64,000 nt of DNA from positions 1,116,001 through 1,180,000 of the forward strand of contig NZ_JAVDDX010000001.1 of assembly GCF_030848575.1 (NCBI RefSeq). Reading direction: 5' to 3'. The notes below the pieces were generated by a model that saw only the letters and a list, made by a program, of their open reading frames with translations, searched no databases and was not told the DNA's origin. Position 1 is the first letter of the stretch. Each line of letters begins with the position of its first letter. Below, in pieces: positions 56,072 to 61,481 of the stretch. Both the position numbers and the translations under genes were made by a program. The DNA comes from Haloarcula sp. H-GB4. Its GTDB lineage: Archaea; Halobacteriota; Halobacteria; Halobacteriales; Haloarculaceae.

Positions 56072-57187
56072 ATGGGAATTGCTGAGTTCGCAAGAGACGG
56101 CCGCGTAGTGGTGGGCGATCGGCCGGGAGCAGCAGTGGTAGCCGCGGTCAGTGGCTTCCTCTTGCTGGATTTAGTTGCAAAGCTCGCTGGGACAACCGTG
56201 TTTTTCCTCGGAGCCAAGTTACTGGGGGGGTCTCTCACCGTGAGTTCGTTGCTCTCAATGGTGGTGGACGGACTGCTCGTCGGACTGGCGGTCGGACTCG
56301 CCGGCATTGGTCTGTCAATGACATATAGCATTCTCGACTTCGCCAACTTCGCGCACGGGGACACGGTGACTGTCGGGGCGTTCCTGGGGTGGGTCGCCGC
56401 GTACATCACCGCTGGCCTCGGGACCGGAGCCCCGATTTCAGAACTGTTCATGCTCAATTCGGGGCGACAGTTGAGCACCGTTTCGACGTTCATTCCGGTG
56501 CTTCTCGGCCTTGTCATCGCCGGTGTCGGGTCGATTGGGATCGTGTTACTCATCGACCGACTCACCTATCGCCCCATGCGCGATACGGACAACATCTCCT
56601 TGCTGATTGCGTCAATCGGTGTTGCCCTCGCGTTGCGATACCTCATTGCGTTCGTCTTCGGCACGCAGACAAGCGGGGTCGCAAGCGGCGGGCTCCGGGT
56701 GACGCTATTCTCGATGATTTCAATCACCGACAACGAAATCACCCTGCTGGTGGTGTCGGTCCTGTTGATGCTCGGCGTCCACCTGCTGTTACAGCGGACG
56801 AAGCTTGGCAAGGCAATGCGGGCGATGGCCGACAACGAAGATCTCGCACGCGTGACCGGGATTCCGACCGAACGCGTGATCCGACTTACCTGGATCCTCG
56901 GTGGCGGCCTGGCAGGCATCGGCGGCTACCTGCTCGTGCTGGAAAGCGGCACGATATCGTTCAACTTCGGCTGGATTCTGCTCCTGCTCATCTTCGCCGC
57001 GGTCATCGTCGGCGGCATCGGCTCGATCTACGGGGCGATGGCTGGCGGGATTCTCATTGGGCTAGTCGATAGTCTGGCCCTGATCTGGCTGCCATCCGGG
57101 CTGACGCGGGCCTCTGCGTTTCTGGTGCTCATCGTCGTCTTGCTGTTGCGCCCGTCCGGCATCTTTGGGGGGGTGTCGACTGCATGA
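56072..57187 (+). CDS. livH: Branched-chain amino acid ABC transporter permease, LivH type
   Basis: The 371-residue permease has the LivH layout with about eight membrane helices. A longer cytosolic or periplasmic N-terminal stretch than the E. coli protein adds residues 1-60. Family motifs include GLALALVGIGLSMTY-like IGLSMTYSILDFANFAHGDTV and the conserved RPMRDTDNISLLIASIG, with KAMRAMADNEDLARVTGI near the cytosolic coupling loop. The start is leaderless, with TTATTTAC about 31 bases upstream. It overlaps livM by four bases (ATGA). Confidence 0.95.
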   Translation: MGIAEFARDGRVVVGDRPGAAVVAAVSGFLLLDLVAKLAGTTVFFLGAKLLGGSLTVSSLLSMVVDGLLVGLAVGLAGIGLSMTYSILDFANFAHGDTVTVGAFLGWVAAYITAGLGTGAPISELFMLNSGRQLSTVSTFIPVLLGLVIAGVGSIGIVLLIDRLTYRPMRDTDNISLLIASIGVALALRYLIAFVFGTQTSGVASGGLRVTLFSMISITDNEITLLVVSVLLMLGVHLLLQRTKLGKAMRAMADNEDLARVTGIPTERVIRLTWILGGGLAGIGGYLLVLESGTISFNFGWILLLLIFAAVIVGGIGSIYGAMAGGILIGLVDSLALIWLPSGLTRASAFLVLIVVLLLRPSGIFGGVSTA

Positions 57188-58467
57188 GTAATGTTGACAC
57201 TGTTCGAAACCGTCTGGACGCACTCCCGGACGTAGGGCTGGTCATCGGCTTCATCGCCAGTATCTGGGCCGTTATGCTCGTACTGGCGATCGCTGTCGGG
57301 GGGGCGAACTGGGCGAACCTCGCTGCCGGCTTCATCGGCAGCGTGACCGTTCTCATTGGTGGCTACGCCATCCTCGCGCTGGCGCTGAATCTTCAGTGGG
57401 GGTATACCGGTCTGTTCAACATCGGCATTGCAGGGTTCATGGCCGTCGGCGCGTACACGACAGCGATTCTCACTGCGCCAACTGACCCGGCGGCCGGGGC
57501 AGTCCCGGGGCTCGGCCTCCCGCTATGGGTTGGCCTCATCGGCGGCATGGCAATGGCCGCTATCATCGGCGGTCTCGCGGCGCTGCCGGCACTCCGACTG
57601 AAGGCTGACTACCTCGCCATCGTGACGGTCGCGTTCTCGGAGATAATTCGGCTCGTCGTCAACTGGGACGGCCTCGCCGAGTTCTCGCTGTTCGGAGCGC
57701 CGGTCGGAACCGGCGGCGCGACCGGTATCTCGTTCAAGTCCGCAAACGAGGTCGCGTCGACGCTCATCAATGGCGTCGGGCAGCCACTCGTAACTGCTGC
57801 GGAGGGCGTCGGCGTTTCCGGGCCGAATCTGGCGAATCTCACGTACGGGATACTTCTCCTGCTGGTCGTGGCTGCGAGCTACTGGGTGCTCGCCCGAATC
57901 ACCAATTCGCCGTTCGGCCGCGTGCTGAAAGCGATTCGTGAGGACGAGACCGTGACCCAGTCACTGGGCAAGGACACCCGCCTGTTCAAGATCAAGACGT
58001 TCATGATCGGCTGTGCGCTGATGGGGCTGGCCGGTGTCCTGTTCCGCGGCCAGGCGGGCTACGTCAGCCCACAGCAGTTCAGACCGACGATTACGTTCTA
58101 CGTGTTCGCGGCGCTCATCATCGGCGGCTCCGGATCCAACACCGGGAGCATCATCGGCGCAGCGACGTTCTCGGGACTGCTGTTCTACCTGCCGGCGCGG
58201 CTGGGCGAGAACGTCTCGCTTGGCGGCACTCGCGCACCCGGCAACATCGTGGACGCGGTTGCCGGACTCGGGTCGCTGGACCCGCTTCCACTCCTCGCAT
58301 ACACCATTAGCAACGTCAGCACGCTCCGGTTTGTCCTCATCGGCGTCGTGCTGATATATATCATCCAGAACCAGCCAGAGGGGCTGCTCGGCCACCGGAA
58401 CGAACCCGCAACGAGCGTGAGCCTTGACAGAGCGCAGTCCGGATCCGGAGGTGAGACAGATGAGTGA
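57184..58467 (+). CDS. livM: Branched-chain amino acid ABC transporter permease, LivM type
   Basis: The 427-residue permease has about nine membrane helices. Family features are YAILALALNLQWGYTGLFNIG, ALRLKADYLAIVTVAFSEIIRL, and the coupling-helix region FGRVLKAIREDETVTQSLGKDT. GGSGSNTGSIIGAATFS marks the end of the domain. The ATGA overlap with livH and the 8-base overlap with livG show tight coupling. The C-terminal tail (ATSVSLDRAQSGSGGETDE) is acidic and cytosolic. Substrate is probably branched-chain or short amides; not fixed by sequence. Confidence 0.95.
   Translation: MSNVDTVRNRLDALPDVGLVIGFIASIWAVMLVLAIAVGGANWANLAAGFIGSVTVLIGGYAILALALNLQWGYTGLFNIGIAGFMAVGAYTTAILTAPTDPAAGAVPGLGLPLWVGLIGGMAMAAIIGGLAALPALRLKADYLAIVTVAFSEIIRLVVNWDGLAEFSLFGAPVGTGGATGISFKSANEVASTLINGVGQPLVTAAEGVGVSGPNLANLTYGILLLLVVAASYWVLARITNSPFGRVLKAIREDETVTQSLGKDTRLFKIKTFMIGCALMGLAGVLFRGQAGYVSPQQFRPTITFYVFAALIIGGSGSNTGSIIGAATFSGLLFYLPARLGENVSLGGTRAPGNIVDAVAGLGSLDPLPLLAYTISNVSTLRFVLIGVVLIYIIQNQPEGLLGHRNEPATSVSLDRAQSGSGGETDE
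58447..58454 (+). promoter_or_regulatory. Strong ribosome binding site for livG
   Basis: GGAGGTGA, a full match to the anti-Shine-Dalgarno sequence, lies five bases before the ATG at 58460 and inside the end of livM. It settles the livG start at 58460 rather than the longer ORF at 58424. Confidence 0.75.
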
Positions 58468-59290
58468 ACCCGATGCTGCACCGCAACAGGAAACTGCCGT
58501 CACGAGCGACGCGATCGAGTCGCCGCTGCTGGAAGTCGACGGCCTCCGCAAGGAGTTCGGCGGCGTTGTCGCAGTCGACGGGGCGACGTTCTCCGTGGCA
58601 GAGGGGTCGCTCACCGGCCTCATTGGCCCGAACGGGGCCGGCAAATCGACGACGTTCAACTGTATCACTGGCATTCACGAACCAACTGGTGGCCGGGTCA
58701 CCTTTGACGGCCAGAGCATTACTGGGCTCCCGTCATACACACTCGCAAATAAGGGGCTGGTCCGGACGTTCCAGATCGCCCGTGAACTGTCCGAGATGAC
58801 GGTCCTGGAGAACGTGATGCTCGCGCCGGGTGGACAGGTCGGCGAGTCGGTCATCCAGTCGGTGACGCCAGGGCTTCGCGGCAATGTCATCGACGACGAG
58901 ACGGCTGTTCGGGACCGCGCGTGGGAGACGCTCGAGTTCTTCGAGATCGACCATCTCGCCCACGAGAACGCCGGCAATCTCTCCGGTGGCCAGCGGAAAC
59001 TGCTGGAGATGGCGCGGGTCCTGATGACCGACCCCGAGATGATTCTACTGGACGAGCCGCTGGCCGGCGTCAACCCGACGCTGGAAGAGAAACTACTGGA
59101 GCGGATTCACGAACTCCGTCGAGAGCAGGGCCTGACCTTCCTGCTGGTCGAACACGACATGGACGTTATCATGAACAACTGCGAACACATCATCGTCATG
59201 CATCAGGGGAGCATCCTCGCCGAAGGGGACGCCGAGACTATCAAGTCGGACGAGCGGGTACTTGAGGCGTACCTAGGAGGTGACGTATGA
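58460..59290 (+). CDS. livG: Branched-chain amino acid ABC transporter ATP-binding protein, LivG type
   Basis: From the ATG at 58460 the product has 276 residues. ABC motifs are Walker A GPNGAGKSTTF, the LivG-type Q-loop region RTFQIARELSEMTVLEN, signature NLSGGQRKLLEMAR, Walker B MILLDEPLAGVNP and the H-loop LLVEHDMDVIMN. The order and size match LivG. It forms the ATPase dimer with LivF, energising the LivHM permease. It is coupled to livF by ATGA overlap. Confidence 0.96.
   Translation: MSEPDAAPQQETAVTSDAIESPLLEVDGLRKEFGGVVAVDGATFSVAEGSLTGLIGPNGAGKSTTFNCITGIHEPTGGRVTFDGQSITGLPSYTLANKGLVRTFQIARELSEMTVLENVMLAPGGQVGESVIQSVTPGLRGNVIDDETAVRDRAWETLEFFEIDHLAHENAGNLSGGQRKLLEMARVLMTDPEMILLDEPLAGVNPTLEEKLLERIHELRREQGLTFLLVEHDMDVIMNNCEHIIVMHQGSILAEGDAETIKSDERVLEAYLGGDV
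59276..59283 (+). promoter_or_regulatory. Ribosome binding site for livF
   Basis: GGAGGTGA at 59276-59283 lies in the end of livG, with the livF ATG at 59287. It supports internal initiation of livF in the operon. Strong Shine-Dalgarno sites appear here and at livG, unlike the leaderless first gene livH. Confidence 0.7.
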
Positions 59291-60042
59291 GTCCGCGCGC
59301 GACAGAGTCAGAGGCTATCACGCTCCCCGACCCAGCCGAGCGGCTCCTCGCCATCCGAGACCTTGATGCGGGCTACGGCGATCTGCAGGTCCTCAGTGAT
59401 GTCCATATGGACGTTTCCGACGGTGAGTACGTCGTCATCGTCGGGCCAAACGGGGCTGGCAAGTCAACGGTGATGAAGTCCGTCTTCGGCCTGACAACGT
59501 ACATGGGTGGAGAGGTCATCTTCAGCGGGGCTGATATCAGCCAGCGCAATCCCGACGAAATCATTTACGAGGGAATCAGCTACGTCCCCCAGACCGGCAA
59601 CGTATTCGGCTCGCTGAGTGTGCGCGAGAACCTCGAAATGGGTGCGTACATCCTCGACGAAGTGCCGGAAGACCGGATTGAAGACGTGTACGACAGGTTC
59701 CCCATTCTCCGGGAGCGGTCCGACCAGTCGGCCGGGACGCTGTCGGGCGGCCAACAGCAGATGCTCGCCATGGGCCGGGCGCTGATGCTCGACCCCGACC
59801 TGCTGTTGCTCGACGAGCCCTCCGCCGGGCTCGCCCCGGACCTGGTCGACGATATGTTCGATCGCATCGACCGCATCAACGACGACGGCACGGCTATTCT
59901 GATGGTCGAGCAAAACGCAAAGGAGGCACTCCGGCGGTGTGATCGGGGCTATGTGCTCGTGCAGGGTCAGAATCGCTACGAGGACGAAGGGACGGTCCTC
60001 CTCAACGACGAGCAGGTTCGCCAAGACTTCCTCGGCGGATAG
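59287..60042 (+). CDS. livF: Branched-chain amino acid ABC transporter ATP-binding protein, LivF type
   Basis: The 251-residue ABC protein has the N-terminal AIRDLDAGYGDLQVLSDVHM, Walker A GPNGAGKSTVMK, the LivF signature LSGGQQQMLAMGRALM, Walker B LLLLDEPSAGLAP, and H-loop ILMVEQNAKEAL. It ends RQDFLGG. It pairs with LivG. It is the last gene of livHMGF and is followed, 31 bases on, by the convergent substrate-binding protein gene. Confidence 0.96.
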   Translation: MSPRATESEAITLPDPAERLLAIRDLDAGYGDLQVLSDVHMDVSDGEYVVIVGPNGAGKSTVMKSVFGLTTYMGGEVIFSGADISQRNPDEIIYEGISYVPQTGNVFGSLSVRENLEMGAYILDEVPEDRIEDVYDRFPILRERSDQSAGTLSGGQQQMLAMGRALMLDPDLLLLDEPSAGLAPDLVDDMFDRIDRINDDGTAILMVEQNAKEALRRCDRGYVLVQGQNRYEDEGTVLLNDEQVRQDFLGG

Positions 60043-60073: not shown

Positions 60074-61450
60074 TTACTGGTTCATCGCGCTGTTGATCTC
60101 AGACGTGTAGGAGGACTGCTGTTGCTCGAAGCCGACCTGATTGACGATAGTCCCGCCCTCCGCTTCAAATGCGCCGGCGAACGCCTCTTGCAGTGCTTGC
60201 CCGTAGCTGTTGTTCACGTACAGCGTCGATGCGGTCGCGGCACCGAGTTCGTCCACGCCGACTTGCGCAAGGACCTGTCCCTGCAGGGCGTCGCTGGGCG
60301 GGGTGCGGAACATGTAATCGTTGTCTTCGAGGTCAGTAATCGTCGGCGACGTAGACGCTGGCGAACACCCGACGACGCTGCTGTCGATGAGCACGTTTCT
60401 GGCGACCTGTATCGACGTCTCGGAGCTGGCCGCTCCGGTAATTGACGGATAGCCCGCGCTGACAAGAGAGTTGGCGGCGTCGATGCCCGCCTGCGCCTGG
60501 GTCTGGGTGTCTCCGACCTGATAATCGAACTCGAAGTCGACTTGGCCTTCGAGTTGCAGGGCCGGGAGTAGCGCTCCGTCACGGATCGGCCTGCCGAGCG
60601 GTCCGAGGTCGCCGGTTTCGGGCATCAACACACCGAACTTGACCGTCCGTCCGGAGTCGCTCCCAGAGCCGTTCGGTTCCGGCTGTGGGATGTCGTCGCC
60701 AGCGCTGAAGTCGACGGTGCTGAGCGTATCGACGCCCCCACCGTCTTGGAAGCCGAAGACCTGATACTGCGCCGAGGCCATATCCCCGTTTTCGTCGAAG
60801 TTGACCGCACTCGAGGCCCCCTCGTACTGGATGTTCTCGCCCGCGGCGGCCGCTTCGACGGCCGCTGGCAACTCGGAGGGACCGTACGACTCGCCGCCCG
60901 GATTGGCGACGACGCGCATGTGATTCCGGACGGCCTGCCCGTCGTTTTCGCCGGCCAGCAGGTTTGCGAGAATCTGGACCGCCGTCGCGTCGTATGCCTG
61001 TGACGTGAACACGCCGGCCTCGTCGTAATCGAACTCGGAGGTGAACTGCTCTGTGAAGGTATCGACACCAGGCCCGGCCGCTGACGGGGCCGTGCCGCGG
61101 ACGTTCGACATATCGTCGCCGACGTTACTCGGCAGTTCGCCGTCCTGCAGGCCATCGGTGACGAGGATGTCGGCGGCATCGTCGCCGTAGTCGGCGTAGA
61201 AGTCCTTGAACAGTTGCACACCGCTCTGAGGATAGCCGACGACCATCAGCACGTCCGGTGACTCCGGACCGCTGTCGCCACCGGACTCGGTCCCGGTTCC
61301 GGTCATCCCACCATCGCCGCCGTCTCCGCCGTCCCCGCCGTCACCGCCGGTCTGTTCGGTTGAACAACCTGCCAACCCACCAAGCAGACCGACAGTGGTT
61401 ACCGCCCCAGTTCGCTTCAGGAACGCTCGCCGATTGGTATCGCGACTCAT
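60074..61450 (-). CDS. Liv-type substrate-binding lipoprotein with swapped lobe halves (circular permutation)
   Basis: From the ATG at 61450 the protein has 458 residues. A Tat signal (NRRAFLKRTG) with lipobox LAGC (Cys29) is followed by a Gly/Asp-rich linker (31-62). Next comes a block at about 65-248 that in LivJ-type proteins is the C-terminal half (PDVLMVVGYPQSGVQLFK; ASSAVNFDENGDM). A linker (249-268) leads to a block at about 269-458 that is normally the N-terminal half (VKFGVLMPETGDLGPLGRP; ITGAASSETSIQVARN; YTSEINSAMNQ). So the order is swapped and the chain ends where the usual break before the second lobe would be. It is convergent with livHMGF. A TATA-like element at 61474-61481 lies 28 bases upstream. 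Confidence 0.85.
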   Translation of the reverse strand: MSRDTNRRAFLKRTGAVTTVGLLGGLAGCSTEQTGGDGGDGGDGGDGGMTGTGTESGGDSGPESPDVLMVVGYPQSGVQLFKDFYADYGDDAADILVTDGLQDGELPSNVGDDMSNVRGTAPSAAGPGVDTFTEQFTSEFDYDEAGVFTSQAYDATAVQILANLLAGENDGQAVRNHMRVVANPGGESYGPSELPAAVEAAAAGENIQYEGASSAVNFDENGDMASAQYQVFGFQDGGGVDTLSTVDFSAGDDIPQPEPNGSGSDSGRTVKFGVLMPETGDLGPLGRPIRDGALLPALQLEGQVDFEFDYQVGDTQTQAQAGIDAANSLVSAGYPSITGAASSETSIQVARNVLIDSSVVGCSPASTSPTITDLEDNDYMFRTPPSDALQGQVLAQVGVDELGAATASTLYVNNSYGQALQEAFAGAFEAEGGTIVNQVGFEQQQSSYTSEINSAMNQ

Positions 61451-61473
61451 ACCACTTACCACTGATTCACATC

Positions 61474-61481
61474 TTATAAAA
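61474..61481 (-). promoter_or_regulatory. TATA box of the Liv substrate-binding protein gene
   Basis: The minus-strand TTTTATAA is centred 28 bases upstream of the ATG at 61450, giving a leaderless transcript. The gene therefore has its own promoter, independent of livHMGF. The rest of the gap to the sod stop (61482-61636) contains no recognised gene. Confidence 0.6.

Follow-up and report, generated by a model that had tools for sequence, protein, structure and literature searches.

A circularly permuted LivJ-type substrate-binding lipoprotein in Haloarcula and the recurrence of its chain order in Halobacteriales

Natural circular permutations of proteins are usually single ancient events whose intermediates have been lost. 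A precedent from 2016 is TpMglB-2 (Tp0684) of Treponema pallidum, a type I lipoprotein that binds sugars and is naturally permuted. Its chain is cut in the N-lobe, the first three strands have been moved while the strand order of the C-lobe is unchanged, and the moved part matches poorly; its authors propose a "Type Ic / Cluster Bc" that includes Gram-positive relatives and suggest tethering as the cause (PMC4990184). For DNA methyltransferases and for saposin/swaposin the route is regarded as permutation by duplication, that is tandem duplication, fusion and truncation at both ends (PMC3320104). The protein reported here is likewise a circularly permuted type I binding lipoprotein. TpMglB-2 is bacterial, belongs to a sugar cluster and is cut in the N-lobe, whereas the Haloarcula protein is an archaeal Tat lipoprotein of an amino-acid cluster with its cut in lobe 2 (near residue 192 of the 348 in 3ipc, by alignment to solved structures; family Peripla_BP_6), its sequence match is high and its order has changed repeatedly. 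With LivJ/LivK-type proteins (PF13458; 3td9, 3ipc, 4gnr, 1usg) it has the fold family, the pocket-region motifs and the LivHMGF partners in common; unlike them, its chain starts and ends in the middle of lobe 2, contains an extra linker and carries the anchor, as we infer, on lobe 2. The preliminary description of this DNA knew of no described case in the LivJ family. We also found no description of a permuted LivJ-type protein or of a haloarchaeal case in the literature searched, which left most subscription journals outside its scope, but the precedent of TpMglB-2 among type I binding lipoproteins has to be acknowledged (PMC4990184).

The window, i.e. the whole stretch of 64,000 nucleotides that was analysed, stems from Haloarcula sp. 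H-GB4 and contains the permuted livJ-type gene at 60074..61450 on the minus strand (ATG at 61450..61448, stop codon at 60076..60074). It encodes a substrate-binding lipoprotein of 458 amino acids, as judged from the open reading frame, a Peripla_BP_6 match in two stretches and a profile test; the preliminary description had the same coordinates and omitted the strand. The chain begins with a Tat signal (RR) and a lipobox LAGC (MSRDTNRRAFLKRTGAVTTVGLLGGLAGC, residues 1-29, 61364..61450, minus strand), both kept in orthologues, with C29 as the lipobox cysteine. A Gly/Asp-rich tether (residues 30-64, 61259..61363, minus strand), delimited by sequence and gene comparison, connects this cysteine to the new first strand. 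About 22 nt before the ATG lies a TATA-like box, TTTTATAAG (61473..61481, minus strand), which is conserved upstream of most Haloarcula orthologues examined. The earlier claim that the gene has its own promoter is in agreement with this, by consensus recognition only.

Membership in the family PF13458 (Peripla_BP_6) is supported by 82.9 bits compared to a cut-off of 31.7, and the match splits into two stretches with profile positions 1-188 at residues 269-457. For the order test a profile of 375 positions was built from 44 standard-order haloarchaeal homologues. Residues 59-248 correspond to positions 193-375 and residues 267-458 to positions 2-192 of this profile; each half is present once, and nothing is lost or duplicated. 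If the halves are re-ordered, one continuous match to positions 2-375 with 559.7 bits is obtained. As both halves are complete and occur in swapped order, the circular permutation is complete and exact, which bears out the preliminary description of a naturally permuted LivJ-type lipoprotein. The type I fold departs here from its canonical N-to-C order; the C-half precedes the N-half, and the protein is therefore a permuted variant of the LivJ-type family and not a canonical member.

The limits of both halves, all on the minus strand, rest on gene comparison and profile test. The old C-terminal half, now first, covers residues 65-248 (60707..61258), starts with PDVLMVVG and opens with PDVLMVVGYPQSG. 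The old N-terminal half, now last, covers residues 267-458 (60077..60652), in accordance with Pfam positions 1-188; it opens with GRTVKFGVLMPETGDLG and ends in SAMNQ, so that NSAMNQ is followed by the stop. In between, a linker of 18 residues (249-266, 60653..60706, minus strand) leads from the old C-terminus to the old N-terminus. It is supported by a length of 16-20 residues in nearly all permuted relatives and by conservation within clades; such a joining linker had been recognized before, at 20 residues (249-268), which our measurement shortens.

The cut site was compared between 44 genes of standard order and 53 permuted ones. In all 53 of the latter, the new ends lie in one loop of three residues that links a helix to a strand: the standard pattern SAL-xDD-PDVLVVIG occurs in the permuted genes as tether-PDVLVVIG ... 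SAL-xx-stop. One linker outside the usual length (L116) was scored shorter because the domain match extends into it. From the topology known for LivJ-type proteins, the cut position in 3ipc is inside lobe 2 and the old N-terminus is strand 1 of lobe 1. With the cut in lobe 2 the membrane anchor probably now sits on this lobe instead of lobe 1, an inference for which there are no tethering data. We further report that several livJ proteins of permuted or standard order (L075, L077, L105, L115, L140) keep the Tat motif without the lipobox cysteine, so that the anchor may be absent there.

A first structure prediction with a thin alignment of 11 close relatives was poor (pLDDT 47). In a second AlphaFold prediction the halves of standard relatives were added to the alignment; the best model reached a pLDDT of 72.1 and a pTM of 0.71 (the other four ≤46.7) and shows the expected alternation of strands and helices. 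Residues 1-61 are disordered in the model (pLDDT <50), while its residues 268-458 can be superposed on 1-192 of 3ipc (Z 11.8); Foldseek matches only approximately 190 columns because it is sequential. With all segments of the profile present once, and with this pTM, the two-lobed domain is taken to be complete. The pocket-region residues S342, S343, S363, P364, T367, D99, G100 and Y416 are conserved to ≥90% in both orders, and fold and ligand pocket are probably retained. Binding of branched-chain or other amino acids may be proposed from this conservation alone, without ligand data.

The partner genes are located on the plus strand and comprise a LivH-type permease (56072..57187) and a LivM-type permease (57184..58467), both by a BPD_transp_2 domain match, a LivG-type ATPase (58424..59290; ABC_tran and BCA_ABC_TP_C) and a LivF-type ATPase (59287..60042; ABC_tran, best NCBIfam match LivF). 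This livHMGF set (56072-60042) is convergent with the permuted gene, and the convergent locus is found across Halobacteriales with either chain order. Within one genus (g5) one genome (L062) is permuted and its neighbours L083, L084 and L092 are standard. The genome of H-GB4 itself possesses, on another contig (L138, C4:182403-198402), a livJ paralogue of standard order, accompanied by a livHMGF set of its own on the same strand, not convergent.

A close permuted relative occurs in 159 out of 392 Halobacteriales genomes (36 of the 95 genera) and a close standard-order relative in 178 out of 392, both orders being present in 43. The permutation is thus not the single oddity it had first seemed to be; it is widespread and recurrent across the order. 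A sample of 345 genomes from the phylum contained no permuted relative outside Halobacteriales at E≤1e-76. A plasmid search, with no bacterial chromosomes in scope, returned standard-order haloarchaeal copies in two pieces each for seven of its eight matches, and the eighth, from Tistrella, is standard-order too. This Tistrella protein (L141, plasmid pTM3 of Tistrella mobilis) shares 45% identity with the haloarchaeal protein in its N-half; on the basis of sequence resemblance a transfer between archaea and Alphaproteobacteria is possible.

To count the changes of order, two trees were used: one of the binding proteins with the halves first put in a common order, and one of LivH, LivM, LivG and LivF, which uses no binding-protein sequence. 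The binding-protein tree needs five order changes, with at least four forced by strongly supported branches, and none of its 200 bootstrap trees gets along with only one; the transporter tree likewise needs five and forces at least four. A single clade of all permuted forms is rejected by both (AU test, p 1.6e-4 and p 1e-36, respectively), which means that the order changed at least twice. Both trees place clade B (L064, L065, L067, L071, L117) as sister to the standard-order L097 and L100; grouping it with clade A is rejected. The unions C+D+E, A+C, D+E and C+E are not rejected by the binding-protein tree; A+C+D+E is not rejected by it either (p 0.16) but is rejected by the transporter tree (p 0.001). 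Since several unions are not rejected, the exact number of origins stays open, and it is undecided whether the Haloarcula clade, L048/L063 and L062 each arose separately. A conservative count is two changes from the binding protein alone and three with the transporter tree; our best estimate is that the order probably changed four to five times.

A second kind of permutation, type II, is observed in five genes (L142-L146), in which just the initial ~40 N-lobe residues have been transferred to the C-terminus. Their order is tether, N-half from ~38, native N-C junction, C-half, linker and the first ~41 residues of the N-half, which is closer to TpMglB-2 than the first permutation. They carry the clade A linker and branch within this clade at two separate places (one clade rejected with p 1.3e-4), in the convergent locus. 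This indicates that genes which were permuted already underwent a further permutation on two occasions.

We also found tandem pairs of permuted livJ genes beside livF (L077:8544-11155 and L115:6764-9374), one gene per pair being without the lipobox cysteine. Such tandem copies represent the intermediate required by permutation by duplication (PMC3320104), and the type II genes, with the clade A linker and their place within that clade, also speak for this route. A fused double gene N-C-N-C was not found in the loci read.

We consider it very probable that the Haloarcula protein is a working substrate-binding lipoprotein of a HAAT LivHMGF importer for branched-chain or polar amino acids whose gene has been circularly permuted; ligand and expression are inferred. 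The inferred route would start with a tandem duplication of livJ, the end of copy 1 would then be fused to the start of copy 2, and the redundant outer parts would be lost. As is observed, the Tat/lipobox signal stays in front, and a linker of 16-20 residues bridges the old ends. The anchor would shift from the outer end of strand 1 in lobe 1 to lobe 2, leaving the docking on LivHM tethered by the other lobe. A potential advantage, which is a guess, is that strand 1 and its ligand loop are freed from tether strain, or that the docking geometry is improved. The proposed route is the same as for the DNA methyltransferases and saposin/swaposin; the haloarchaeal case differs in showing several events in one orthologous operon and a second cut site that arose from the first. 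That permutation in the same loop happened independently three to five times, with two or more re-permutations at a second site, by repeated tandem duplication and trimming and because an anchor away from the start of lobe 1 is advantageous, is a proposal to which we give an even chance.

An alternative is that the gene was permuted once, early, and several lineages reverted to the standard order by the same duplication-deletion route. The type II genes demonstrate that permuted genes can be permuted again and thereby restore the native N-C junction, and the above-mentioned p of 0.16 leaves room for one clade of permuted forms from which only clade B is excluded. There is a proline among the last ten residues of the linker in 52 of the 53 permuted genes, compared to 4 of the 44 pre-domain tethers of standard genes; as a feature of sequence alone, this could point to a common ancestry of the linkers or to a structural requirement that they share. 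A single gain would nevertheless have to be followed by seven reversions in the outgroup-rooted binding-protein tree and nine in the midpoint-rooted transporter tree, compared to five changes, and the outgroup is standard-order, though distant. The linkers, moreover, are conserved within clades and differ between them, with a similarity rarely above that of shuffled sequence (the A-E and C-E pairs slightly exceed it). We therefore regard one early permutation with reversions as unlikely, while keeping it in mind. Still more doubtful is that the halves were split and re-fused in the other order without tandem duplication: fission and fusion, the second known route in the review (PMC3320104), would lead to the same end product, but no split livJ halves exist among the loci read, tandem copies do exist, and a single fission followed by a fusion would hardly produce the type II order.

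The view that the permuted copy has decayed or lost its function has nothing positive in its favor except that a permutation could break binding, and it appears very improbable. The dN/dS among Haloarcula is 0.03-0.10 in both folded halves, on which a pseudogene was rejected; the pocket region is conserved, and in most of the permuted loci read the gene still has livHMGF next to it. For an artefact of assembly or mis-joining no supporting evidence was found, and we give it practically no weight. The permuted order occurs in 28 of the 32 genomes of the genus, as one match that spans practically the full length of the protein, and in published assemblies of seven species (H. sebkhae, argentinensis, vallismortis, amylolytica, japonica, mannanilytica and salina). 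As these independent assemblies have the order across both junctions in common, the junctions are genuine and mis-joined genes are ruled out, just as the preliminary description had expected from the sequence. The permuted arrangement is old, widespread and under purifying selection.

The anatomy given in the preliminary description is right and unusual, and the recurrence is the more interesting fact. Repeated change of order in one operon appears as a natural repeated experiment in protein rewiring. As standard, permuted and re-permuted forms are present in one operon of related culturable archaea, the route, cost and benefit become directly testable, and so does the 2016 suggestion from TpMglB-2 that membrane tethering is the driver. 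Biosensors based on binding proteins usually rely on engineered permutation, and permuted livJ proteins offer natural scaffolds for them. A warning concerns automatic annotation, which gives both chain orders one name.

Two loci deviate in detail. One standard-order livJ (L148:2339-3778), from a partial genome, is without ~36 residues of the N-half (profile positions 92-127), either by deletion or by an assembly fault. In Halomicroarcula sp. SYNS111 (L047:6390-8214) approximately 1.8 kb of extra DNA separates the permuted livJ from livF, compared to tens of bases elsewhere.
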